A DNA stretch of 64,000 nt from a virus, in the IMG/VR virus record IMGVR_UViG_3300044631_001772, positions 1 to 64,000 of that record. One strand, given 5' to 3'. The notes below the pieces were generated by a model. That model saw only the letters and a list, made by a program, of their open reading frames with translations. It did no database searches and was not told where the DNA came from. Positions 1 through 59,961 of the stretch are shown here, one piece after another; within the stretch, counting starts at the first letter, position 1; each line of letters opens with the position of its first letter. Position numbers and translations under genes: made by a program.

Positions 1-2
1 TG

Positions 3-206
3 ATGACGGTTGTGATGAGTGAGGAGACCTACGCCATCATTCAGAAGCTGGCAGCGGACCGTATGGATGAACTGCTCAGCGTCTACGATGACTGTGATCA
101 GGTGCCCTATGATGCTCAACGTATCCTGGAAGCGGTGACCCATTTCAGTTCCTGGGACCGTGGGGCAGTTGAGCAACTGGCATACCTGCAACGCCAGATG
201 CCCTGA
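3..206 (+). CDS. small acidic hypothetical protein, start possibly upstream
   Basis: Unrecognised 67-residue acidic protein, predicted mostly helical, with no membrane segment. Codons are GC-rich (GCC, CTG, CGT), as in the next six genes and unlike the rest of the window. Only two bases precede the ATG at 3. The TGATGA context matches the start at 1067, which supports this start, but the promoter and any upstream extension lie outside the window. An in-frame ATG at 15 is an alternative. It is the first visible member of the mini-gene array and is probably an early, host-directed gene; that role is inferred from position only. Confidence 0.55.
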   Translation: MTVVMSEETYAIIQKLAADRMDELLSVYDDCDQVPYDAQRILEAVTHFSSWDRGAVEQLAYLQRQMP

Positions 207-214
207 GCACACCC

Positions 215-232
215 TACAATACTCTCAGTTCA
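215..232 (+). promoter_or_regulatory. -10 box plus conserved initial block, copy 1
   Basis: TACAATACTCTCAGTTCA lies 30 bases (start to start) before the ATG at 245. TACAAT resembles a sigma-70 -10 box, and the following CTCAGTTCA is repeated before other mini-genes. No -35 hexamer is evident 16-18 bases upstream and no SD lies between the block and the ATG. Confidence 0.6.
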
Positions 233-244
233 CAAGCGAACCCG

Positions 245-505
245 ATGGCAACCGCAACCTACCAGACCAACCTGACTGACCGCACCTATAACGGTTGGAC
301 TAATTATGAGACCTGGAATGTTGTGCTCTGGATTGAGAATGATGAGAGCATTTACAACTTCATTCAGGAGAATGAAATCGCCTGCTATGAAGATTTGCTG
401 GAGGCATTCTATGAATTCGGCACTAAAGAGACTCCTGATGGTGTGAAGTGGAACGACCCTAAGATCAACCGCGCTGAGATTAACGGCGACGTGTTCGATT
501 TCTAA
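245..505 (+). CDS. small conserved protein with NYETWNV motif
   Basis: 86-residue acidic protein. Residues 16-30 carry NGWTNYETWNVVLWIEND, a signature I recognise from small proteins of cyanophages and other phages (DUF7249-like; the family name is from memory). Function is unknown. No transmembrane segment or catalytic motif is visible. The start at 245 is fixed by the -10/leader block at 215-232, which recurs at the same spacing before 790. Codon use is GC-rich. Likely transcribed early, possibly together with 565-699. Confidence 0.75.
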   Translation: MATATYQTNLTDRTYNGWTNYETWNVVLWIENDESIYNFIQENEIACYEDLLEAFYEFGTKETPDGVKWNDPKINRAEINGDVFDF

Positions 506-564
506 ACCAATTGGAACGGCAGCGCCCTAAAGACTGCCGCAAACCGTACACTTTCAAATTACAA

Positions 565-699
565 ATGACTCGCGACCTTGCTATCTCCCTGCTGCGTTCT
601 GGCAACGACGGCGACAGCATTCTCCAGATCCTGGAAACAATCGCCTCCGATGATAGTATCAGCAACGCCGAACCTACTTCAGACCCTATCGACTTCTGA
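565..699 (+). CDS. 44-residue hypothetical protein
   Basis: Small acidic protein with a helical core containing RSGNDGDSILQILETI, a pattern seen in short cyanobacterial and cyanophage proteins of unknown function. An upstream in-frame ATG at 511 would add 18 residues of low-quality, basic sequence. I prefer 565, where the acidic helical segment starts. Unlike its neighbours it has no clear copy of the CTCAGTTCA leader, so it may be cotranscribed with 245-505, 59 bases upstream. Confidence 0.5.
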   Translation: MTRDLAISLLRSGNDGDSILQILETIASDDSISNAEPTSDPIDF

Positions 700-759
700 T
701 CATACTGTGCCACTTCGATAGGTGGCACAGCGGAGGGTTCCTCCCTCCCCTTTGCCCCC

Positions 760-777
760 TACAATACTTTCAGTTCA
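760..777 (+). promoter_or_regulatory. -10 box plus conserved initial block, copy 2
   Basis: TACAATACTTTCAGTTCA differs from copies 1 and 4 at one of 18 bases. Its start lies exactly 30 bases before the ATG at 790, the same spacing as copy 1. No SD and no clear -35. Confidence 0.6.
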
Positions 778-789
778 CAAGGCAACCCG

Positions 790-999
790 ATGACCACCGC
801 CACCGCCACCGTCTACGGTGTGTTCACGATGGGCACCGACTACTACGACTCTGAGTTGGTGCTGCACACCCTCTACGCTGACCCTGCCGATGCTGACCGC
901 CTGGCATCCGAACTCCGCGCCATGACGGAGGCAGAGTATGGCTGCCCTGATGAGCCCGTCTACAGCGCGGTGGAGGTTCAGGCGCTGACGGTTCTCTGA
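790..999 (+). CDS. small hypothetical protein of the GC-rich array
   Basis: 69-residue acidic protein. The opening VYGVFTMGTDYYDSELVLHT followed by an Ala/Asp-rich helix suggests a small alpha/beta fold. Similar short proteins (a hydrophobic strand, then a helix rich in DADRLA) occur in phages without known function. The start is set by the leader at 760-777. Strong use of GCC, ACC and GTG separates it from the AT-rich main genome. No catalytic motif or membrane helix. Confidence 0.65.
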   Translation: MTTATATVYGVFTMGTDYYDSELVLHTLYADPADADRLASELRAMTEAEYGCPDEPVYSAVEVQALTVL

Positions 1000-1037
1000 T
1001 TGGCACAAGGGGGGCGCAGACGCCCCCACCGACCCCT

Positions 1038-1055
1038 TATACTGATCTCAGTTCA
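1038..1055 (+). promoter_or_regulatory. -10 box plus conserved initial block, copy 3
   Basis: TATACTGATCTCAGTTCA matches 14 of 18 bases of copy 1, with the CTCAGTTCA part intact. It begins 29 bases before the ATG at 1067. No SD. Confidence 0.5.
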
Positions 1056-1066
1056 AACGACACCTG

Positions 1067-1228
1067 ATGACCCGCTACGACGTGATCTGCCCCTCCGCTC
1101 CCTGGGAGAACACTACCACCGATGCCGACCGCGCATGGGACCTCTGCCTGGACCTCTCTGAGGAGTACGGCTACGCCCAGGTCCGCTGCAACGGGGTGAT
1201 CATCGGAGACTACACTGAGGGGCGCTGA
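1067..1228 (+). CDS. 53-residue hypothetical protein of the GC-rich array
   Basis: Begins MTRYDVICPSAPWENTTT and ends CNGVIIGDYTEGR. It has three cysteines, two acidic stretches and an ADRAWDLCLDLSEEYG helix. The alternation looks like a small alpha/beta domain, resembling short phage proteins of the 'A.A.A.eLseeyGya.Vr.ng' kind. No known function. The start is supported by the array leader at 1038-1055. The stop at 1228 lies 16 bases before the next leader at 1245, showing tight packing of independent transcription units. Confidence 0.6.
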   Translation: MTRYDVICPSAPWENTTTDADRAWDLCLDLSEEYGYAQVRCNGVIIGDYTEGR

Positions 1229-1244
1229 CCCCCCGCTGATCTGC

Positions 1245-1262
1245 TACAATACTCTCAGTTCA
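1245..1262 (+). promoter_or_regulatory. -10 box plus conserved initial block, copy 4
   Basis: TACAATACTCTCAGTTCA is identical to copy 1 over all 18 bases and begins 32 bases before the ATG at 1277. No SD or obvious -35. Confidence 0.6.
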
Positions 1263-1276
1263 ACCGACACCGACCG

Positions 1277-1453
1277 ATGATTCTTTCTCCCGCCACCCGC
1301 CTGCATGATCGCCAGACCGTGTGGGTTGCCCGTAAGAATGACGACACCCCCTTTAACCGCCTGACGACTGAATGGGGCATCCCCGCCACCGTGTACGCTG
1401 CCCAGTTCGCCGAAGTACACGCCGCCGACGTTCGGCAGGCGCAGTGGGGTTGA
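1277..1453 (+). CDS. 58-residue hypothetical protein of the GC-rich array
   Basis: Small protein beginning MILSPATRLHDRQTVWVARK and ending in an Ala/Gln-rich helix (AAQFAEVHAADVRQAQWG). Not recognised. The start is defined by leader copy 4 at 1245. GC-rich codons throughout. The next leader-like block starts 20 bases after the stop. No signal peptide or metal-binding motif. Confidence 0.55.
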   Translation: MILSPATRLHDRQTVWVARKNDDTPFNRLTTEWGIPATVYAAQFAEVHAADVRQAQWG

Positions 1454-1472
1454 CCCCCTGCCGCCGACCCTG

Positions 1473-1488
1473 TAGAATTCTCTCAACC
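1473..1488 (+). promoter_or_regulatory. -10 box plus diverged initial block, copy 5
   Basis: TAGAATTCTCTCAACC keeps the hexamer pattern and CTCTCA but has lost GTTCA. It begins 28 bases before the ATG at 1501. Confidence 0.4.
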
Positions 1489-1500
1489 GCAACCCACCCG

Positions 1501-1710
1501 ATGAACACCCCCACCGTGATGACCGCCGCCGAACTGAATGCTGCCATCGCATCGGGTGCCATGCGCCTGACCCGTCTGCCCCGTCGTGGTCCCCGTAAGG
1601 GCGAAGCGACTGCTAACCGTGTTGGTGGTGGTGGCACCGCGTGGCGCCCTTCTGTTGCTGCGGGTCACGCCAACCGCCACATCCGCAACGGGTCGCCTGC
1701 CCTGCGGTGA
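1501..1710 (+). CDS. 69-residue basic Arg/Gly-rich hypothetical protein
   Basis: Last gene of the GC-rich array. A short Ala-rich helix (about residues 8-20) is followed by a strongly basic, low-complexity tail with PRRGPRKGE (28-36), a GGGG run and many Arg and His. It could bind nucleic acid, inferred from charge only. An in-frame ATG at 1372 would overlap the previous gene in another frame; the leader at 1473 favours 1501. No SD. Confidence 0.5.
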   Translation: MNTPTVMTAAELNAAIASGAMRLTRLPRRGPRKGEATANRVGGGGTAWRPSVAAGHANRHIRNGSPALR

Positions 1711-1901
1711 CCCCATCCCCTGCCCCCTGCGTTCGTTCGTGGGGGGCAGTTCGTTCGTTCGTGATCGACAGTGCCCCGCCGCCGCGCCCGATCGGGGGCG
1801 CCCCCGTGTTATAAAAACGCACCACTACCCTAAGCTATAAACGACCCAGATCGACCTCTAAATATCTCCCTGATTCAAAAATCCCGGAAGAATATATAAA
1901 T
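1711..1901 (+). other. intergenic junction between GC-rich and AT-rich DNA
   Basis: No gene seen. Two GTTCGTTCGT-type tetranucleotide runs (about 1730-1740 and 1750-1763) are followed by the 14-bp palindrome CGGGGGCGCCCCCG at 1793-1806. After this, composition switches to AT-rich within a few tens of bases. The palindrome could be a transcription stop without a U-tract, or a recombination scar; neither is shown. Confidence 0.6.
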
Positions 1902-4529: not shown

Positions 4530-4931
4530 ATGTCTGTTACAAGGATATCTAGATCGTTTAAAGATATTAGTTTATCCTTTGAACCTCATCCGGTGACAAA
4601 GGATCTTGCTGTTTTGAAAAATGAACGTGCAATTATGCGTTCAATTCGTAACTTAGTTGAAACAATTCCAACAGAAAGATTCTTTAATTCACTTCTTGGA
4701 TCAAACGTTCGTTCAAGTTTATTTGATTTTGTAGATTATGGTACTGCTTCATTGATTAAAGATCAAATTGAGAACACAATTTCAAATTTTGAACCAAGAG
4801 TTAATAATGTTTCAGTTGATGTTAATCCTCTTCCAGATTTAAATCAATTTGATGTGACTGTTGTTTATGACATTATTGGACAAGAACTTCCCACACAAGA
4901 CTATTCGTTCATTTTAGAGGCAGCAAGATAA
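4530..4931 (+). CDS. 25: baseplate wedge subunit gp25
   Basis: 133 residues, the length of T4 gp25 (132). It belongs to the gp25/lysozyme-like baseplate wedge family, which links the sheath and wedge in contractile tails. SRSFKDISLSFEPHPVTKDL near the N-terminus, NERAIMRSIRNLVETIPTER and the end VTVVYDIIG fit the family. First gene of the baseplate operon, directly after a doubled late promoter. gp6 starts one base after its stop codon. Confidence 0.92.
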   Translation: MSVTRISRSFKDISLSFEPHPVTKDLAVLKNERAIMRSIRNLVETIPTERFFNSLLGSNVRSSLFDFVDYGTASLIKDQIENTISNFEPRVNNVSVDVNPLPDLNQFDVTVVYDIIGQELPTQDYSFILEAAR

Positions 4932-4932
4932 A

Positions 4933-6855
4933 ATGCCTTTTACTAAATTTACCAATCTAGATTTTGATCAGATTAAGACATCCATCAAAGATTATCTCCG
5001 TGCAAACTCTACGTTTACGGATTTTGACTTTGATGGGTCTAATTTTTCTGTTCTGATTGACACGTTAGCGTATAACACATATATTACTGCTTTTAACTCA
5101 AACTTGGTTGTCAACGAATCTTTCTTAGATTCAGCAACCGTAAGAGAAAATGTTGTTTCTCTCGCAAGAAACATTGGATATGTACCACGCTCTAGAACCG
5201 CCTCTACAGCGTCTATATCTTTTAATGTTAGTACATCAGCAAGCACATCTACATTGACCTTACAGGCGGGTCTGGTGTGCGTTGGTACAGCGAATGGAAC
5301 TTCATATGTCTTTTCATCACCACAAAATGTCTCTGCGACTGTTGTAAATGGAACAGCATCTTTTAATAATATTCAGGTTAAAGAAGGAACATTTCTTAAG
5401 AAGCAATTTACTGTTGATGGATCATTAGATCAAAAGTTTATATTGGATAACTCCTTTATAGATTCTTCAACAATTGTTGTTTATGTAAAAGGAACGAGTG
5501 ATAGTGGACTGGGCAGACAATATAATCTTGTAGAAAATATTTTTGATATTGATTCAAATTCAGAAATTTTCTTATTACAAGAAGTTCAAGACGAAAAATA
5601 TCAAATTTTCTTTGGTGATGGTAGATTTGGTAAAAAACTTGAAAATGGGTCAATTATTACAGTAAGTTATATTGTTACTGATGGCAAAGATGGTAACGGT
5701 GCCAGCGACTTTTCTTTTGCAGGAACACTGAAAGATTCGAGTGATAATACCATTGTTCCAACAAACACCATTACAGTTACAACAAATCAAAAATCACAAA
5801 ATGGTTCCGATATTGAAAGTCTAGATTCAATTAAGTATTTTGCACCAAGAATATATTCATCACAGTATCGGGCAGTAACTGGAAGAGATTATGAGGCAAT
5901 TATCAAATCAAAAGTTTATCCAGATACTGAGTCAGTCTCTGTAATTGGTGGTGAAGAATTAACTCCGCCACGATTTGGAAAAGTTTTAATTAGTATTAAA
6001 CCTAAGAATGGGACATACGTATCAGATTTTGACAAGCAGCAAATTAAAAATAAACTAAAACAATATACAATTGCTGGCATTGAACCAGAAATCATCGATC
6101 TTCAAGTTCTTTATGTTGAAATTGATTCATCCATTTATTATAACTATGCACAAGTTTCTACCGTAGAGGATTTAAAAACCAATGTTAAGAATTCTCTTAC
6201 AACTTATGCAAAATCACCAAACCTAAATGCTTTTGGTGGAAGATTTAAGTATAGTAAAGTCTTGCAAGTCATTGATAATACTGATTCTGCTATTACATCT
6301 AACATTACTAAAGTTAGAATCAGAAGAGATTTAAAAGTAAAACTTAATACTCCAACTCAATATGAAATTTGTTACGGTAATCAGTTTCACGTAAAATCAT
6401 CTGGTTATAATATCAAATCTACTGGTTTTACTATTAGTGGTGATCCAGATACAGTTTACTTTACAGATACTCCAAACTCAGATCTTAAAACGGGAACAAT
6501 CTCAATTGTTAAACCATCTCCAGTAATTTCTGGCGTGGGAACAACGTCTATCGCAAAAACACCGATTCTTGTTAGATCTGCAGGTACTGTTGACTATGAA
6601 AAGGGCGAAATACTTTTAGGGGCAATTACTGTCACATCTACTTCTCTTGCTGATGACATTATCGAGATCCAAGCATATCCAGAATCAAACGATGTACTCG
6701 GATTGAAGGATCTTTATGTTTCATTTGACATCTCAAAAAGCACAATAAATATGGTTAAAGATGTTATTACATCTGGTGATGATATATCAGGTGTGGTATT
6801 TTCAAAAGATTCTTATAGATCAAGCTATTCTAACGGGGAACTAACGAGGTCGTAA
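4933..6855 (+). CDS. 6: baseplate wedge subunit gp6
   Basis: 640 residues (T4 gp6: 660), located between gp25 and a gp7-position gene as in T4. The N-terminal region (LRANSTFTDFDFDGSNFSVLIDTLAYNTY) and the central RAVTGRDYEAIIKSKVYPDTESV are typical of the gp6/gpJ baseplate family that forms the inner wedge ring. The C-terminal third is beta-rich and Thr/Ser-rich, as in cyanophage versions. One base separates it from the next gene, so it is part of one late operon. Confidence 0.9.
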   Translation: MPFTKFTNLDFDQIKTSIKDYLRANSTFTDFDFDGSNFSVLIDTLAYNTYITAFNSNLVVNESFLDSATVRENVVSLARNIGYVPRSRTASTASISFNVSTSASTSTLTLQAGLVCVGTANGTSYVFSSPQNVSATVVNGTASFNNIQVKEGTFLKKQFTVDGSLDQKFILDNSFIDSSTIVVYVKGTSDSGLGRQYNLVENIFDIDSNSEIFLLQEVQDEKYQIFFGDGRFGKKLENGSIITVSYIVTDGKDGNGASDFSFAGTLKDSSDNTIVPTNTITVTTNQKSQNGSDIESLDSIKYFAPRIYSSQYRAVTGRDYEAIIKSKVYPDTESVSVIGGEELTPPRFGKVLISIKPKNGTYVSDFDKQQIKNKLKQYTIAGIEPEIIDLQVLYVEIDSSIYYNYAQVSTVEDLKTNVKNSLTTYAKSPNLNAFGGRFKYSKVLQVIDNTDSAITSNITKVRIRRDLKVKLNTPTQYEICYGNQFHVKSSGYNIKSTGFTISGDPDTVYFTDTPNSDLKTGTISIVKPSPVISGVGTTSIAKTPILVRSAGTVDYEKGEILLGAITVTSTSLADDIIEIQAYPESNDVLGLKDLYVSFDISKSTINMVKDVITSGDDISGVVFSKDSYRSSYSNGELTRS

Positions 6856-9800: not shown

Positions 9801-12800
9801 AATATTATATTTTAAAAATTGATGATGACACATTCAGAATCGCAAATGCAGGCATCGGTGCAACGAATCCATCAAACTATCAGAGAAGAAAATTTGCAGA
9901 ATTTGAAAGCACTGGATCTGGATATCAAATTTTCAATTATCCAGAAATTTGCTTATCGGTAGAATATAGTGCTGCTGGAATTGGAAGTATCCAATCAAAG
10001 AGAACTATAGTATCTACCCCAATTGTTAGAGGTGAAATTGTTGGCGTATACGTATATGAGTCTGGATCTGATTATGGTTCATCAATTTTAAATTTACACA
10101 AAAAACCAACCATTACCATAAAGAATGGTAAAAATGCACAACTTAATCCCGTCATAGTAAATGGTGCGATACAAGATGTTAATATTCAGTATAGTGGATC
10201 TGAGTATTATTCAACTCCAGATATTAAAGTAACTGGATCTGGAACTGGTGCAGTAATTAAACCAGTAATTACAAATAATAAATTAACTGATGTAGTAATT
10301 ATAAATTCTGGTATTGGATATACTTCAACCAATACCACCCTTACCATAGAACCTGCCGGAAAGAATGCCATCTTAAGTTCACAAGTAAGGTCTATAACAG
10401 TTAATAAAAATCTTCTTTATGGGGAAGAGAATGATGCTAGAGAAATTGCTAACGAACTTCTCACATCATCATTGAGCAATTTAGAATATAGTGTTTGCGG
10501 TTACTCTGAAAATATTCAAAACGAATTTGGTGATGATGGATCTTCGCATTCACCAATTATTGGATGGGCATATGATGGCAATCCAATTTATGGTTCTTAC
10601 GGTTATTCAGATCCAGAAGATAGAAATTCCCCCATTAAAAGACTTTCTTCTGGATATTCTTTAAACACATCCAATATAGAAAACAGACCATCTTCTTTCG
10701 ATGATGGATTTTTTGTAGAGGACTATAAATTTACAAATAATGGAGATCTTGATGAATATAATGGAAGATTTTGCGTAACCCCAGAATTTTCAAATGGAGT
10801 TTATGCATACTTTGCAACTTCTGAGCAAAATCTTTTTGGTGATCTAGTCGGTCAGTTTCCTTACTTTATTGGAGAAAGATATAGATCTAAATTTATAACT
10901 GAGAATAGTTCATTAGACCAGACATTTGATTTTAATAATTCAAATCTTATTCGAAATACTTTACCATACAAAGTAAATGAAGAGTATGCTGGAAATGATT
11001 TTATTATAGAATCTAATGAGGTAATAAATCAAGTTACAGTAGTTGAATCTGTAACGACTGGTTCTGTTGAAAATTATCAAATTATAGATTCTGGAGATGA
11101 TTATAAAATTGGTGATGTTCTAGAATTTGATCAGCAAAATACCGGCGGCGCTGGTCTATCGGCACAAATTTCTGAAGTTACTGGTAAAGAAATTGTTGAT
11201 ATTAATACATCTATAACTTCGTATGATGATGCAATATTTACTTGGAATAATGGTCAAAAAATTGAGGTTACAGTTTCACCAAGACATAGTTTAGAGAATC
11301 TTGATTATGTAAATGTATCAGGATTTTCATCATCGTTAAGTTCTTTAAATGGTTTTCAGCAAATTGGTGTAACTTCATATAGTTCATCTCTCATTCAACA
11401 AATGCCTGCTTATTCTGCAGCGGGTATTGTAACTGATATTTACATTGCAAGTATTCCAGAAAACCTTTCAATTGGTAGTTCTATTGGAATTGAAGCAGAA
11501 ACACTATCAGTTTTAAATATTTTCAATAATATTATAAGAGTTCGCAGAGAAGCAACAGGGAGTGCTCACACTGCAACAACTCCAGTTTACTTTATTCCAA
11601 ATACATTCACAATTAATAAATCAGTAGATTATTTCGAATCTAAAGTCAACGACTTAGTTTACTTTAATCCAAAGTATTCTGTCGGTGTAGGTACTACATC
11701 TGGTATTGGAATTGCAGTTACATATAATGTTGGTGTTCAAACCAATAATATAATTTCAATCCCAACCCAATCAATTTACCTACCAAATCATCCATTTAAA
11801 ACAAATCAAGCAGTAATATTCTCAAATCCATCAGGAACTTCTGCTATTTCAGTAGCAAATACCTCTAGCAGTGCATCTTTCAACTTACCGTCAAGTGGAG
11901 ATACTCAAACTGTATATGTTATTAGTCAATCTGTAGATTATATTGGTATTGTAACACAAGTTGGTCTTACGACCTCAACAAAGGGTCTGTTCTTCTTGTC
12001 TAATGGTTCTAATGATTACCAGTATTCATTACAATCAAACTTTAATCAAGTTAAGGGTGATGTTGAGAAAGTTAAAGCACAAGTTTCTGTGTCAACATCA
12101 CATAATCTGACTTCTGGGGATACTATTAAACTTTTGGTCGAACCAAATCTTTCTGTTGGTATTGGAACTTCAACTGCAGTAAGAGTTAAAAGAAATGTAG
12201 TTGCAGACTGCGTGATAATTGATTCTATTGAAATTAGTTATTCTGACATTAATACAACAACTCAAGAAATTACAATACCGTCGCATAATTTTAAAACTGG
12301 TGATAGAATTGTTTATGTTGAAAATAAATCAATATCTGGTCAGAGTAATACTGTTTATTATGTTTATAAAGTAGACTCTAATAGAATAAAATTATGCGAG
12401 ACTCTAGTTGATTGTCTTTCAAATCCACCAATAACAGTTGACATTGATGCAGGAACTATTAAAACTTTTGGTAACGTTGGTATCGCCGCTGCAAAATGGT
12501 CTGGAGGTGTTTTAGCAAACAATGGTAAAATTTATGGAATTCCTTACAATTCTTCATCAATTCTTGAAATTGATCCAGTAGGTTTAACCACGAATACTTT
12601 TGGTAATGTTGGTACTGGTTCTGCAAAATGGATTGAAGGTGTTTTAGCAAATAATGGTAAAATTTATGGAATTCCTTTGAGTGCTTCTCAAGTACTTGAA
12701 ATTGACCCAGTAGGTTTAACCACGAATACTTTTGGTAATGTTGGTAGTAGTGGTTTAAAATGGAGCGGAGGTGTTTTAGCAAATAATGGTAAAATTTATG

Positions 12801-15800
12801 GAATTCCTTTTGGTGCCTCTCAAGTACTTGAAATTGACCCAGTAGGTTTAACTACAAATACTTTTGGTAATGTTGGTAGTAGTATTTTAAAATGGTTTGG
12901 TGGTGTTTTAGCAAATAATGGTAAAATTTATGGAATTCCTTATCGATCTTCAACAGTTCTTGAGATCGATCCAGTAGGTTTAACCACAAATACTTTTGGT
13001 AATGTTGGTAGTACTATCAATAAATGGTCTGGAGGTGTTTTAGCAAATAATGGTAAAATTTATGGAATTCCTTTTAATGTCTCTCAAGTACTTGAAATTG
13101 ACCCAGTAGGTTTAACTACAAATACTTTTGGTAATGTTGGTACTGGTAATAATGAATGGATTGGAGGTGTTTTAGCAAATAATGGTAAAATTTATGGAAT
13201 TCCTTACAATTCTTCATCAATTCTTGAAATTGATCCAGCGGTTGGAATAGCAATTACGTTTGGTAACGTTGGTACTGGTGTTGCAAAATGGTCTGGAGGT
13301 GTTTTAGCAAATAATGGTAAAATTTATGGAATTCCTTACAATTCTTCATCAGTTCTTGAATTTGTTACCAATCCAAATGACCCAGAAAATCTACCAGAAA
13401 TACAAAAAATTAATCCAGCAATTCAAACAATAAAAAATAATAACCTTGTATTTGATTTAAGTGATTCTTCTCTGTCTGGTTATAATTTTAAAATTTTCTA
13501 TGACCAAAATTTCAAAGATGAATTCGTATCTACAGGATCTACAAATAGTTTCTCAGTAAGTGGTGTTGGAACAGTTGGTGTTTCTACAAATGCTTCGCTT
13601 ACAATTAATTATAGTTCCGAATTACCTACTCAACTTTTCTATAATTTAGAAAAGTCTGGTTACATTAGCACTGCAGACAAAGAAGTTCAAAATTATTCTC
13701 AAATTAATTTTGTTGATAGTTATTATAATGGTTTTTATTCGATTTCTGGAGTTGGGACAACAACGTTCCAGATCTCTTTACCTAATTTACCAGAAAATCT
13801 TAACTATACCTCAAATGACTGTGATACTTTAGAATATACAACAAATTCATCAACTGCATCTGGTGGTGTTAGTAAAATTAGAACTATATCTCCTGGTGTT
13901 GGGTTTAATAAGATTCCATCATTTTCTGGAACGAATTCTACTAACGGTAAAGGTGCATACTTAATTGCTAAATCATCCTCCATTGGAAATATTAATCAAA
14001 CAAGAATTTTAAATGAAGGTTTTGAATACCCATCAGACAAAACTCTGAGACCAACTGCCAACATACCAAAACTTTTAATCATCAAAGATTCTAATACTAT
14101 TTCGAATATATCTGTATCAAATGGGGGCAAAAATTATACAACTGCTCCAGATTTAATCATTGTAAATTCTGAAACGGGTGAAAAAATCGATTCTGGATTA
14201 TTAACTGCCAACTTGTCTGGTACGGGAATTATATCGGTTAATATTGTTCAAGGTCCAAAAGGTCTTCCATCAAGACCAGTGGACATTAAAACAATTAATA
14301 ATACTAACGGCGTAGGTATTCAAACGATTACATCTTCTTCATCTGGAATTGTTACTTGCTATCTCGTAACACCTTCAAGTGGTTTTGATATTGAACCATT
14401 TACTGTTGGGGATAAAATATTTGTAGAAGGTATACAAAAATATAGTAATGATGGTGATGGGTTTAACTCGGAAAATTATGGTTATAATTTCTTTACTATT
14501 ACAGCATACGAAAATGGTGGAACATTACTTACAAGAAAACTTGAATATAATCTTTCTGGTCTTTCCACCAACGTTGGTATAGCCAAAACAGTTCAAGAAT
14601 CTTATGGTTATATTGTAAATTATAATAATTATCCAGTATTTGATGTAACACAAACATATTCACCATTTATAATAGGTGAAAATCTATCAGTTCAAAATGA
14701 AACTGGTTTTGAACTTCAAGATTTGAGAGTTATTCAGGATAATCAAAATTATATTAAAGTTTCTGGCAATTATGATATAAACACTAACGATGTTATTCGT
14801 GGTATTCAATCGGGTAATATTGCAACAATTGATGATGTAAAAATAACAACTGGATACTTTAATATTGACTATGCATCTACACAAAGAATTGGTTGGTCTG
14901 ATGATATTGGCAAACTAGATGAAGATACTCAGGTCATCCCAGATAACGACTATTACCAGACTCTATCTTATTCTGTAAAAAGTAACCAAGAATGGGTTGA
15001 CATTGTTACCCCAGTAAATAGTATCTTACATCCAAGCGGGTTTAAAAACTTTGCAGATACCACAATCGACAAAAATGTTGGTGTTGAAACTACTACTGCA
15101 AGTGAATCATTACAAATTCTTTATGATATTATTGACGAAAGGAGAGTTGATACTATCAATAATTTTGATCTTGTTACTGATGTTGACACGATTAATAATT
15201 CTTCTAGATATTTAAAATTTAAAAATAGAAAACTTGCAGATTATATCGAATGTCGCACTAATAGAGTTCTTGCAATAGATGATATTAGTGGAGAATTTTC
15301 AAGCAGTGACTCACAATCTGAGGGATTTGCAAACGTTTTAGAAATTACCCCATCCGATAAGTATAACAGATACCTAGTTCAAATTATAAGTGACGATAAT
15401 AGTCAGATTCAATTTACTGAAATTGTAGTAATTAATGATGATACTAATATTTACACTCTAGAAAAGTCAAGTATTAGCAATTTAGAAGACCAAATAGGTG
15501 ATATTGATGGTTATGTAGATGAAAATAATAATTTCTATTTAAAATTTACTCCATATGATCCATATAATATTGATTATAATATAAAAATTCTTAGTGATAA
15601 TTTCACAACATTTTTTAGTGGGATTGGAACATATTCGATAGGATTTATAGACTTGATAGGTTCTAACGCTTCAGTATCTTCTGGGATTACAACATCATTA
15701 GTTAGTAAAAATATAAGTCAATTAGAAGCAATATACTCAAATATTCATATTCTTGATACAAATACCGATGAGATGAATTATGTAGAAATTTATGTTGATC

Positions 15801-53475: not shown

Positions 53476-55168
53476 ATGGAAAAATTTTCTTTCTACTGGA
53501 AATCAGTGGACAGAAGTTGATTTTGAAAAACACCATACAAATTTAATTATTGGAACGAATGGTGCAGGTAAGTCCACAATCTTGGATGCACTTACTTTTG
53601 TTCTTTTCAACAAACCATTTAGGCGGATTAATAAACCGCAACTGGTTAATACTACCAACGAAAAAGATTGTCTTGTAGAGATTGAGTTCTCTGTGAATAG
53701 TCGAGATTATCTTGTTCGTCGTGGGATTAAACCAAATATTTTTGATATTGAGGTTAATGGTAATCTTCTTCATAAAGAAGCGGATGATAGGGCAAATCAA
53801 AGAATATTAGAAGAAAATATTCTTAAAGTAAATTATAAGTCTTTTACTCAAATTGTAATTTTGGGTAGTAGTACTTTTGTCCCGTTCATGCAATTGACTA
53901 CTTCTAATCGTCGAGAGGTCATTGAAGATCTTTTGGATATTCGTATTTTTTCTGCGATGAACAATCTCATTAAGGATAAAATTCGTGAGAAAAAAGACCA
54001 GATTAAATCTCTTGAACTTAAGAAAGAAACTCTTAAGGATAAGATGAAGATGCAACAGAGTTTCATTGAGGAACTTGAAAATCGTGGTAATGCCAATATC
54101 AATGCCAATAAAGAAAAGATTGTCAATTTAGATGCAGAAGTTGGCATTTATATGACCGAAAGTGCCAAAACCGAAGAGCAGATTTTTACCTATACTAAAG
54201 AGCAGGAAGAACTCATTGGTGCCGATGATAAGTTAGTAAAACTAAACAATCTTAAGGGCAAAATATCACAGAAAGTATCTGCTATTACCAAAGAACATAA
54301 GTTTTTCACAGAAAATACGGTCTGCCCCACTTGCACTCAAACAATTGAAGAAGAGTTTAGGTTAAATAGAATTGTACACGCTCAAAATAAAGCAAAGGAA
54401 CTCCAGAAAGGTTTTCAAGAACTTGAGGAGACTATAAAGTTAGAACAAGAACGAGAGCGTCAATTCGCAGTTCTATCCAAGGAGATTACGAAACTCAACC
54501 ATGAGATTTCTCAAAACAATACTCGCATTTCACTCAACCAGAGACAAATCCGAGACCTTGAATCTGAAATTCAAACTATTACCCAAAACCTTGCAAACAG
54601 AAATACTGAGCATGAGAAGTTAGAAGAATTTCAAACCAATCTCCAAAAAACATTCGAAGACCTTTCAAAGAAAAAAGAAGAAATCGTTTATTACGATTTT
54701 GCCTATTCCTTACTCAAGGACGATGGCGTTAAAACGAAGATAATCAAGAAGTATCTTCCGTTTATAAATCAGCAGGTGAATCGTTATCTTCAGATGATGG
54801 ATTTTTATATTAATTTTGAATTGGATTCTGAATTTAATGAGAGTGTTAAGTCACCTATTCATGAAGATTTCTCATACTCTTCATTTTCTGAAGGTGAAAA
54901 GGCAAGAATTGATTTGAGTTTGCTGTTTGCTTGGCGTGAAGTTGCAAGAGTCAAAAACTCCGTAAATTGCAATATTCTTTTATTTGACGAAGTTTTTGAC
55001 TCTTCTCTTGATGGTTTTGGTGCGGATGAATTTTTAAAAATTATTAGATATGTGGTTAAAGATACTAATGTTTTTGTAATTTCTCATAAAACAGACCTTC
55101 AAGATAAGTTTGATACGACTCTAAAATTTGAAAAGAAAAAAGGATTTTCTTATAAAACTGAATTATAA
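53453..55168 (+). CDS. 46: recombination endonuclease subunit gp46 (Rad50/SbcC-like)
   Basis: 571 residues (T4: 560). SMC-like ATPase partner of gp47. N-terminal KWKNFLSTGNQWTEVDFEKH, Walker A GTNGAGKST (34-42), a long coiled coil with a zinc hook CPTC (291-294), the ABC signature FSEGEKARIDLSLLFAW, and Walker B NILLFDEVFDSSLD. All catalytic parts are intact. The start overlaps the preceding small gene. A gap with no late promoter follows. Confidence 0.95.
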   Translation: MLVFHKIKWKNFLSTGNQWTEVDFEKHHTNLIIGTNGAGKSTILDALTFVLFNKPFRRINKPQLVNTTNEKDCLVEIEFSVNSRDYLVRRGIKPNIFDIEVNGNLLHKEADDRANQRILEENILKVNYKSFTQIVILGSSTFVPFMQLTTSNRREVIEDLLDIRIFSAMNNLIKDKIREKKDQIKSLELKKETLKDKMKMQQSFIEELENRGNANINANKEKIVNLDAEVGIYMTESAKTEEQIFTYTKEQEELIGADDKLVKLNNLKGKISQKVSAITKEHKFFTENTVCPTCTQTIEEEFRLNRIVHAQNKAKELQKGFQELEETIKLEQERERQFAVLSKEITKLNHEISQNNTRISLNQRQIRDLESEIQTITQNLANRNTEHEKLEEFQTNLQKTFEDLSKKKEEIVYYDFAYSLLKDDGVKTKIIKKYLPFINQQVNRYLQMMDFYINFELDSEFNESVKSPIHEDFSYSSFSEGEKARIDLSLLFAWREVARVKNSVNCNILLFDEVFDSSLDGFGADEFLKIIRYVVKDTNVFVISHKTDLQDKFDTTLKFEKKKGFSYKTEL

Positions 55169-57784: not shown

Positions 57785-57790
57785 TATAAT
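57785..57790 (+). promoter_or_regulatory. -10 box TATAAT before the VWA gene
   Basis: TATAATACTCACA, 29 bases before the ATG at 57814. It shares the hexamer and ACTC start with the array leaders at 215 and 1245. No clear -35 and no SD. Confidence 0.6.
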
Positions 57791-57813
57791 ACTCACATAT
57801 CGCACACAACCAA

Positions 57814-59961
57814 ATGTCCGTTAAGTTTGAAGTCAAAGGGTCCCTTGCTCGTTTATTGGCGACGGAGGACCTTGTGGTGGAACATAAAAAGGTAGAAACT
57901 GCTTGTTTTAATGTCCATACAAGGGTATTGACCTTACCTATGTGGGAAAAAGCGAGTGATAATATTTACACCATGCTTGTCCTGCACGAAATTAGCCATG
58001 CCCTTTGGACCCCAAATTATGATTGGACTAAAGAATGTAAAGTCCCAGCGACTTTTGTAAATATTTGTGAGGATGTGCGTGTAGAAAAACTTTGTAAAAG
58101 AAAATATCCAGGTTCTCCTAAAAGTTTTTATAGTGGTTACAAGGAACTTGCCGATGATGACTTCTTTCAAATCAAAGATGATAATGTAGAAACTTATAAC
58201 CTTGCTGACCGTGCAAACCTGTGGTTCAAGATTGGCAATTATGTTGATGTGCCGATTGAGCGTGGTGAAGAGACTGAGATTATCAAACTGATTGCTAATA
58301 CTGAGACCTTTGCTGATGTGTTAATTGCTGCAGAAGCATTGTATAAGTATTGTAAGCAAAAGCAACAGGAAGAAACCAAGACTTCTCTGGATAGTCTTGA
58401 GTTGCAACAAAGTGGTGCCGATAATCAACCTGCTTCTGATTTTAGTGATCAGGAGCAAGGTGAGAGCGATCAACCTGAAACTGAGGGTTCTGATCGTGCT
58501 TCCTCTTCTGAAGAAAATTCTCAGCAACAGCAACCTACGAATGAAGGTGGTGAGAAGAATGAGGAACCTGAAGTCAAAACGATGGAGTCTCTTGAAGAGG
58601 CACTGAAAGAACTCGTCGGTACTAACCCTTATGAGAATGTTTATCTTGAACTGCCTCAACTTGATTTGACTAAAGTTATTGTTCCCAATCAAGAGATTCA
58701 TTCCAAGTGTAAAGAATCTTGGGATGACTTTCTTACAAGAAATGATTATAAGTATGAGAATATCTTTGGTGAAGTTGATAAGCAGTATTTTGAATTCAAG
58801 CGTTCTGCTCAAAAGGAAGTCAACTATCTGGTGAAAGAGTTTGAGTGTCGCAAGGCAGCAGATTCCTATGCACGTGCATCAACTGCCCGTACTGGCGTTC
58901 TGGACTGCTCCAAACTGCACACTTACAAGTATAATGAAGATATCTTCAGGAAGGTTACAACTCTTGCTGATGGTAAGAATCATGGTCTGGTGTTCGTTCT
59001 AGACTGGTCTGGTTCTATGTCCAATGTGATGCTGGATACTGCCAAACAACTCTTCAATCTTATTTGGTTTTGTAAAAAAGTTGCGATTCCGTTTGAGGTC
59101 TATGCCTTCACCACTGATTATCCTCTTGTAAAGTATGATGTAGATGGTAAGGCAAACATTCGTGAACTTGCCTACAAGAAGAAAGATGGTCTTGTTCAGG
59201 TGGGTGAATGGTTCTCTATGATGAATCTTCTCACCAGCAAAGTGAATTCAAACACTCTGGAGGAGCAGATGAAAAATATCTTTCGTCTTGCTAAGTCATT
59301 CTCTTATAATTCTCACTGCTACTATTCTACTCCTCTTGGAATGGGACTTTCAGGCACTCCCCTGAATGAGGCACTGATTTCTCTTCACCAGATTCTGCCT
59401 AAGTTCCAGAAGGAGAACAAACTGCAGAAAGTTCAGTGTGTGGTTTTGACTGATGGTGAGGGTTGCCTTGTGAAATATCATCGTGAGGTTCAACGCCGCT
59501 GGGAGGATAACCCCTTTATGGGCACTGCTCATATTGGATCTAATGCCTTTCTTCGCGATCGTAAGACTGGAATGACCTATTCTTGTGACTATGAGCATCA
59601 GGATTTCACTGAGGTTCTTCTTCACAATTTGCGGGACAAGTTTATTGATATTAACTTTATTGGTATTCGTGTTCTTGAATCTCGTGATGCTGGCGCTTTT
59701 ATTCGTCGCTACTGTGGATATTATGGTTCTGAGTATGATAAGGTAACGAACGCTTGGAAAAAAGAGAAAGCATTTATTCTTAAGAATTCTGGTTATCATT
59801 CCTACTTCGGTCTGTCTGCAAACACTCTTTCTCAGGAATCTGAGTTTGCTGTTGCTGAGGATGCAACAAAGGCACAAATTAAATCCGCATTTGTGAAAAG
59901 TCTTAAAACTAAAAAAATGAATAAGAAAATTTTGGGTGAGTTTGTGGAACTTGTTGCTTGA
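57814..59961 (+). CDS. VWA-domain protein with HExxH motif (CobT-like)
   Basis: 715 residues. The N-terminal region holds MLVLHEISHALWT, an HExxH zinc-peptidase-like motif at 58-62. A Gln/Glu/Ser-rich acidic linker lies at about 186-265. A von Willebrand A domain starts at VFVLDWSGSMS with the MIDAS DxSxS at 397-401, the later Thr in STPLGMGLSGTPL and Asp in VVLTDGEG. Such proteins pair with a MoxR/CobS ATPase to remodel or insert metal in a target. The CobS-like partner follows at 60233. Often labelled cobalamin protein CobT in cyanophages; real target unknown. Codons are more host-like than in the structural block. Confidence 0.85.
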   Translation: MSVKFEVKGSLARLLATEDLVVEHKKVETACFNVHTRVLTLPMWEKASDNIYTMLVLHEISHALWTPNYDWTKECKVPATFVNICEDVRVEKLCKRKYPGSPKSFYSGYKELADDDFFQIKDDNVETYNLADRANLWFKIGNYVDVPIERGEETEIIKLIANTETFADVLIAAEALYKYCKQKQQEETKTSLDSLELQQSGADNQPASDFSDQEQGESDQPETEGSDRASSSEENSQQQQPTNEGGEKNEEPEVKTMESLEEALKELVGTNPYENVYLELPQLDLTKVIVPNQEIHSKCKESWDDFLTRNDYKYENIFGEVDKQYFEFKRSAQKEVNYLVKEFECRKAADSYARASTARTGVLDCSKLHTYKYNEDIFRKVTTLADGKNHGLVFVLDWSGSMSNVMLDTAKQLFNLIWFCKKVAIPFEVYAFTTDYPLVKYDVDGKANIRELAYKKKDGLVQVGEWFSMMNLLTSKVNSNTLEEQMKNIFRLAKSFSYNSHCYYSTPLGMGLSGTPLNEALISLHQILPKFQKENKLQKVQCVVLTDGEGCLVKYHREVQRRWEDNPFMGTAHIGSNAFLRDRKTGMTYSCDYEHQDFTEVLLHNLRDKFIDINFIGIRVLESRDAGAFIRRYCGYYGSEYDKVTNAWKKEKAFILKNSGYHSYFGLSANTLSQESEFAVAEDATKAQIKSAFVKSLKTKKMNKKILGEFVELVA

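Follow-up and report, generated by a model that had tools for sequence, protein, structure and literature searches.

A repeated promoter-like leader precedes unrelated small genes in an array of T4-like cyanophages

The first 1.7 kb of a 64,000-nucleotide stretch of viral DNA (the window, which is the first part of the 73,979-bp IMG/VR record IMGVR_UViG_3300044631_001772) contains a run of very small genes, five of which are preceded by nearly the same short block of sequence. We consider it probable, at roughly 70%, that this region belongs to an array of separately promoted mini-genes that has host-type promoters with a shared start region, stays at a fixed locus, and has expanded by copying of the promoter-leader. 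The block is a previously unrecognised repeated element of T4-like cyanophages.

A short block recurs ahead of small genes

The original prediction for this DNA was of a GC-rich array of mini-genes in which five members have a block 28–32 nt before the ATG, and this description proved accurate. Seven open reading frames (ORFs) of 44–86 aa lie within positions 1–1710, all on the plus strand, and blocks start at positions 215, 760, 1038, 1245 and 1473, at distances of 30, 30, 29, 32 and 28 nt from the respective ATGs. The copies at 215 and 1245 are indeed identical over 18 nt despite preceding unrelated genes. The GC content of positions 1–1710 is 57.9%, compared to 35.2% for positions 1851–64000, where the next-richest 1.7-kb stretch reaches 48%. 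The window holds the 3′ portion of a longer cassette array of mini-genes. Contig L066 matches the window at 100% identity over 6,604 bp; in it the array continues upstream of the window edge, and a sixth block stands ahead of the first ORF just outside the window, in the sequence TACAATACTCTCAGTTCA-AACGACACCG-ATG.

Allowing up to three mismatches, TACAATACTCTCAGTTCA occurs four times in the whole window, compared to 0.11 occurrences expected from shuffled sequences. We reject a chance origin because of this excess and because of the association of the word CTCAGTTCA with ATG codons: in block-bearing contigs, 234 of the 238 CTCAGTTCA sites (distinct contexts) have an ATG 5–22 nt downstream, so the block is not equally common away from gene starts. 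The reversed word of CTCAGTTCA is at background level in the same contigs. Of the four matches in the window, the one at 54515 is spurious, as it falls within a long coding ORF. By exact scanning of IMG/VR contigs we found a first form of the block, TACAATACTNTCAGTTCA, in at least 119 viral stretches, many of them with 2–5 exact copies, and a second form, TATACTGATCTCAGTTCA, in at least 120. Among the matches listed, the first form has an ATG 27–38 nt from the start of its −10 hexamer in 118 of 119 distinct contexts. When grouped by single linkage of blastp matches, the proteins encoded behind blocks form 59 families, although distant relationships may exist for some of the singletons; their median length is 62 aa.

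The block is part of a promoter-like sequence

For analysis of promoter signals we used a panel of arrays selected by gene (relatives of ORF 1067–1228, plus a few matches of ORF 790–999), which avoids the bias of selecting by block. In this panel, a strong −10 hexamer is found 24–42 nt upstream of 546 of the 674 array gene starts, as against 21 in shuffled sequences. The hexamers, among them TACAAT, TATACT and TAGAAT, thus follow the TAnAnT pattern of SigA/sigma70 promoters at a set distance before the gene start. The block as a whole has the architecture TAnAnT-xx-xx-TCAGTTCA or similar, comprising a 6-nt discriminator, mostly xxTCTC, and then the start region AGTTCA. The gap between the −10 and TCAGTTCA is 4 nt in 233 of 233 cases, whereas the gap between TCAGTTCA and the ATG ranges from 9 to 19 nt. 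A fixed distance on one side and a variable one on the other suggest that this core belongs to the promoter or the 5′ end of the transcript, and not to ribosome binding.

Other promoter signals are present in a minority of cases. A TTGACA-like −35 (at least 5 of 6 positions) occurs 15–19 nt upstream, with a peak at 17 nt, in 76 of 483 promoters (16%, versus 4 in shuffled sequences); an extended −10 (TGn) occurs in 159 of the 483, or about one third (versus 18); and 264 have neither. The earlier statement that the copies share no −35 therefore holds for four of the five in the window but not for the copy at 1473, which has TTGACC with a 17-nt spacer, and has to be qualified for the class by the 16% figure. 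By sequence, the array promoters look SigA/sigma70-like. AGTTCA is the commonest start region, found in about 60% of the 674-start panel and in half of a larger panel; others are ATACCA, AACCGC, GTCAAC and GCAACC. The 48 nt upstream of the −10 have a mean folding z-score of −1.1 (24% are below −2), with clear stem-loops in the window at 1010–1027 and 1442–1460. The GC-rich stem-loops in the window have no T-run, and a hairpin with a T-run is present at the end of the array in Synechococcus phage S-PM2.

Leaders are more alike within a genome than expected

Across 126 non-overlapping gene-selected loci, the leaders of different genes on the same contig have an identity of 0.599 across the first 12 nt past the −10, whereas permuting leaders within gene families gives 0.501 on average and 0.526 at most. 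This difference indicates that a leader's sequence depends more on the genome that carries it than on the gene that it precedes, although both have an effect (see Discussion). Unrelated genes of one contig can share 28–32 identical nucleotides running from the −10 toward the ATG. We rejected a stricter rule of one leader type per genome, as mixed types are found within genomes; the statistical tendency remains. The suggestion that a duplicated promoter-leader collects unrelated genes is thus supported, at the level of sequence, by the 59 families, by whole-leader identities between unrelated neighbors, and by within-genome similarity beyond that seen after permutation.

The array has a fixed location and a variable gene order

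The window comes from a T4-like cyanophage, with the baseplate genes gp25 (at 4530) and gp6 (at 4933) in an arrangement matching that of S-PM2. Sequence matches to the first 1.9 kb are to cyanophages only. The gp25–gp6 pair adjoining the array, together with cyanophage-specific genes, places the phage in the Kyanoviridae; in related contigs a member of the Kyano_Gp96 family (PF23790) is present on the upstream side of the array. We did not find psbA within the 74-kb fragment. In all but one of the contigs that contain both, the array is 2.5–5 kb upstream of gp25–gp6 and in the same orientation. The order of genes within the array is highly variable: we found 71 distinct gene orders, and up to 23 different successors for a single family.

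The cultured phage S-PM2 has 10–11 copies of the block in about 3.1 kb adjoining its ORFanage. Unrelated neighboring genes in S-PM2 have common leaders of 39–51 nt with 94–100% identity, and one unit consisting of a leader and its gene is tandemly duplicated. The array spans positions 10963–14223 of our S-PM2 contig L005 (S-PM2d, LN828717, about 12000–15260). Two annotated genes, S-PM2d071 and S-PM2d074, are wrongly placed on the minus strand, opposite array genes that run on the plus strand (the DUF7249 gene is at L005 13210–13479), and several small array genes have no annotation, for example those at L005 10991, 11252, 12433, 12684 and 12924. The ORFanage itself has been described by Puxty (2015) as a set of small orphan genes, common in freshwater, whose order is rarely conserved; in the portions of that paper covered here, its genes are shuffled and promoter-early stem-loops (PeSLs) are judged unlikely (PMC4503421). 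It resembles the array in its neighboring locus and in consisting of small orphan genes, but the repeated promoter-leader of the adjoining stretch is not described in those portions of the paper (PMC4503421).

Translation of array genes

Shine-Dalgarno (SD)-like motifs are found in 8% of array leaders, compared to 24% of the other ORFs in the window, in agreement with the original prediction that SD sequences are missing. Array leaders are rich in A and C and fold slightly less than shuffled sequences do. Given these features, SD-independent initiation is likely. It had further been proposed that the conserved leader drives this mode of translation. That part is weakened by the spacing, which is locked toward the −10 and not toward the ATG; on this evidence the conserved block need not be the cause of SD-independent initiation. 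Pairing of CTCAGTTC with a universal stretch of 16S rRNA was considered and set aside, because most of the match would be upstream of the predicted transcript start.

Proteins encoded by the array

In nine array families, pN/pS (the ratio of nonsynonymous to synonymous polymorphism) ranges from 0.19 to 0.86, which indicates that the ORFs encode real proteins, some of them fast evolving. Pfam and PHROGs searches with array proteins returned only domains of unknown function (DUFs), weak domain matches or unknowns, and almost none has a known function. A role for these genes in host takeover, as originally suggested, has no support from these annotations. The predicted fold of ORF 1067–1228 is beta-beta-alpha-beta-beta (predicted local distance difference test score, pLDDT, 91). 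Its best matches in the PDB are the antitoxin Dmd of phages T4 and RB69, but these are not significant (E = 0.7–2.5); the resemblance may hint at a function as an antitoxin or in anti-defence. Its significant viral fold matches are to uncharacterised proteins, one of them named as from Cyanophage P-TIM40. For the DUF7249 protein (ORF 245–505) no fold match was found.

Some promoter-leaders are followed by no gene of the usual kind. In five contigs (L086, at 10327–10480 on the plus strand, L021, L074, L102 and L379) a promoter-leader precedes a highly conserved stretch of ~85–115 nt whose only ORF has three codons (ATG AGT GTT TAA), and L377 and L378 have a version with a variant promoter. A short hairpin follows the stretch in five of the seven contigs, and its stem has an A-T to G-C double change. 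The stretch is a candidate small non-coding RNA; no Rfam match was found in the loci scanned.

Organization of the array in the window

The first ORF (3–206) has 67 aa as cut by the window, and its true start, like its block, is visible upstream in L066. Copy 1 of the promoter-leader (215–244) consists of the −10 TACAAT (215–220), then ACTCTC and the leader AGTTCACAAGCGAACCCG, with a predicted +1 at A227. It precedes ORF 245–505 (86 aa, array family 2; DUF7249, PF23907; phrog_871), which is also present in S-PM2 and S-CREM1. The next gene, ORF 565–699 (44 aa, family 33), has no promoter of its own, and a −10 is likewise missing for 50 of its 52 homologs, so it is probably transcribed together with ORF 245–505, as the second of two genes on one mRNA. 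In many contigs the place of the promoter is taken by a conserved leader with a potential hairpin (GGAACGGCAGCGCCCTAAAGACTGCC; window 511–564). Stem-loops between the units (705–757; perfect 9-bp arms at 705–713/722–730, and arms at 719–737/743–761 with 84% match) lie upstream of copy 2 (760–789), which has one mismatch and a predicted +1 at A772, and leads into ORF 790–999 (69 aa, family 9; S-PM2 homolog S-PM2d241).

The stem-loop GGGGGCG-CAGA-CGCCCCC (1010–1027) is directly upstream of copy 3 (1038–1066), which has the second main form, TATACTGATCTCAGTTCA, and a predicted +1 at A1050; it precedes ORF 1067–1228 (53 aa, family 3, phrog_17176), for which pN/pS is 0.20. Copy 4 (1245–1276), with the same 18-mer as copy 1, has an extended −10 (TGC-TACAAT) and a predicted +1 at A1257, and is followed by ORF 1277–1453 (58 aa, family 1; S-PM2 homolog S-PM2d242). 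At the end of this gene is the stem-loop CAGTGGGG-TTGA-CCCCCTG (1442–1460), whose loop begins the −35 (TTGACC, 1450–1455) of copy 5, a PeSL-like overlap. Copy 5 (1473–1500; predicted +1 at A1485) is the variant TAGAATTCTCTCAACCGCAACC, in which the −10 and TCTCA are kept but AACCGC stands in place of AGTTCA. It precedes ORF 1501–1710 (69 aa, family 13), the usual last gene of the array. A GC-rich inverted repeat (CTGCCCCC/GGGGGCAG, 1720–1749) closes the array, at the place equivalent to the S-PM2 terminal hairpin. Just past the array, the sequence ctaagctataaacg (window 1825–1846; L005 about 14565–14580) is common to S-PM2 and is possibly a late promoter or an array border. Outside the GC-rich island, an array-like promoter-leader with another start region (TATAATACTCACATATCGCACACAACCAA-ATG, 57785–57814) precedes a longer gene.

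Relationship to known systems

The closest known kinds of element are the PeSLs of T4, the start-associated sequences (SAS) and extended SAS (ESAS) of mycobacteriophages, and morons; in our comparison the array appears to work like a mixture of PeSLs and SAS/ESAS. PeSLs are reportedly early promoters with stem-loops between shuffled genes of T4-type phages. The array resembles them in having sigma70-like promoters among shuffled genes of T4-like phages, often with a stem-loop beside or overlapping the −35 (window 1442–1478), and its many gene orders fit the PeSL property of marking the borders of shuffled modules. It differs in that a conserved discriminator and predicted transcript start are at fixed spacing, usually without a −35, in that its stem-loops are variable and usually have no T-run, and in the concentration of all these elements in one array. 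The association of the promoters with stem-loops is only moderate, and membership among the PeSLs is no more than possible. Morons are single genes with their own promoter, a terminator and foreign GC content. Array genes likewise have their own promoter, often a stem-loop, and a GC content unlike the rest of the phage, but here many follow one another, have a leader in common and belong to a lytic phage.

In cluster K mycobacteriophages, SAS are 13-bp sequences (GGGATAGGAGCCC) beside start codons, scattered genome-wide, part of which can pair with 16S rRNA (PMC3203893). There are 11–19 SAS/ESAS copies before unrelated families, they are absent from the host, and the ESAS consensus varies by subcluster (PMC3203893). 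Like the cyanophage block, they are short asymmetric repeats ahead of genes from unrelated families, but the cyanophage repeat is tied to a −10 and located in one array. Membership in the SAS family is ruled out by the absence of GGGATAGGAGCCC from the array leaders (whose consensus is TACAATACTCTCAGTTCA...), by the variable distance to the ATG combined with the fixed distance to the −10, and by the low frequency of SD-like motifs.

Discussion

If the array is a set of separately promoted mini-genes expanded by promoter-leader copying, the promoters would be read immediately after infection by the host's RNA polymerase, in unmodified form and carrying the main sigma factor. We infer early expression from the sigma70-like promoters and from what is generally expected of cyanomyoviruses, namely that their early genes are read by the unmodified host polymerase (PMC2984593). 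Transcription would start 7 nt past the −10, on the A of AGTTCA; for S-PM2 the predicted start positions include about 12539, 13942, 14228, 14568, 14783 and 15053 of LN828717. It would yield short, mostly monocistronic mRNAs with unstructured leaders of ~16–20 nt, on which host ribosomes would initiate without an SD sequence. The promoter-leader, 40–50 bp long, would itself be duplicated and would serve as recombination homology for growth and turnover of the array, an incoming gene being fitted with the resident leader. More tentatively, it is possible that the promoter-leader is the array's unit of inheritance: incoming small genes may be recombined onto resident leaders, and the leaders of a lineage may drift in concert, kept matched by a lineage-specific factor or by leader-to-leader conversion. 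If true, the leaders would be an expression address of the genome and not of the gene.

Several points weigh against the main reading. The exact block cannot be obligatory, since about half of the gene-selected leaders have other start regions in place of AGTTCA. A smaller, family effect is also present: between contigs, leaders of one and the same gene have an identity of 0.510, compared to 0.476 when permuted within contigs. Because the contigs are related, both permutation results are approximate and not strictly independent. Recombination at the leaders is read from copy patterns only.

Among other explanations, it is doubtful that the discriminator and start region are the binding site of a putative trans-acting regulator (from phage or host, binding DNA or RNA) that switches the whole array and co-evolves with the leader of each lineage. 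Leaders do drift together within genomes, conservation of the start region equals that of the −10, and ESAS repeats of cluster K drift similarly by lineage (PMC3203893). However, a single genome can contain leaders of different types, the analysis turned up no candidate factor, and copying by recombination accounts for the homogeneity without one. We think it unlikely that the block is mainly a translation-initiation element comparable to the cluster K sequences, with AGTTCA...ACGACC in the mRNA doing the work of an SD by recruiting ribosomes or a factor from the phage. The missing SD, the conservation (an A/C pattern) of leader bases past the predicted start, and the presence of the block only ahead of ATGs would fit such a role, but the core keeps its distance from the −10 and not from the ATG, half of the array leaders have other start sequences, and the −10, TGn and −35 signals place the core within the promoter.

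Two further possibilities seem very improbable to us. One is that the block was captured from a picocyanobacterial gene, as the high, host-like GC content of the island might suggest (taking host GC from general knowledge). In 84,980 bacterial and archaeal species genomes the exact form of the block, the only form searched, has two matches (Nitrospira and Peregrinibacteria) and none in cyanobacteria, and on this basis we reject a host origin of the exact block. The other, which we rate as low, is that duplication left the repeats behind as mere substrates for recombination and that their start region is under no selection. It is consistent with the long identical leaders before unrelated genes, but the same start region occurs in many contigs and in S-PM2 despite fully diverged flanks, and its exact spacing is preserved.

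An array built by promoter-leader copying would give lytic T4-like phages a concrete, sequence-defined route for collecting and swapping tiny orphan genes, the kind of gene that makes up most of phage 'dark matter'. The block would also be a simple tag for finding tiny genes whose annotation is poor even in S-PM2, the reference phage. Cultures of both S-PM2 and its host exist, which makes the promoters, their timing and leader-based gene exchange directly testable. That the leader goes with the genome more than with the gene hints at how viruses related to S-PM2 acquire genes.

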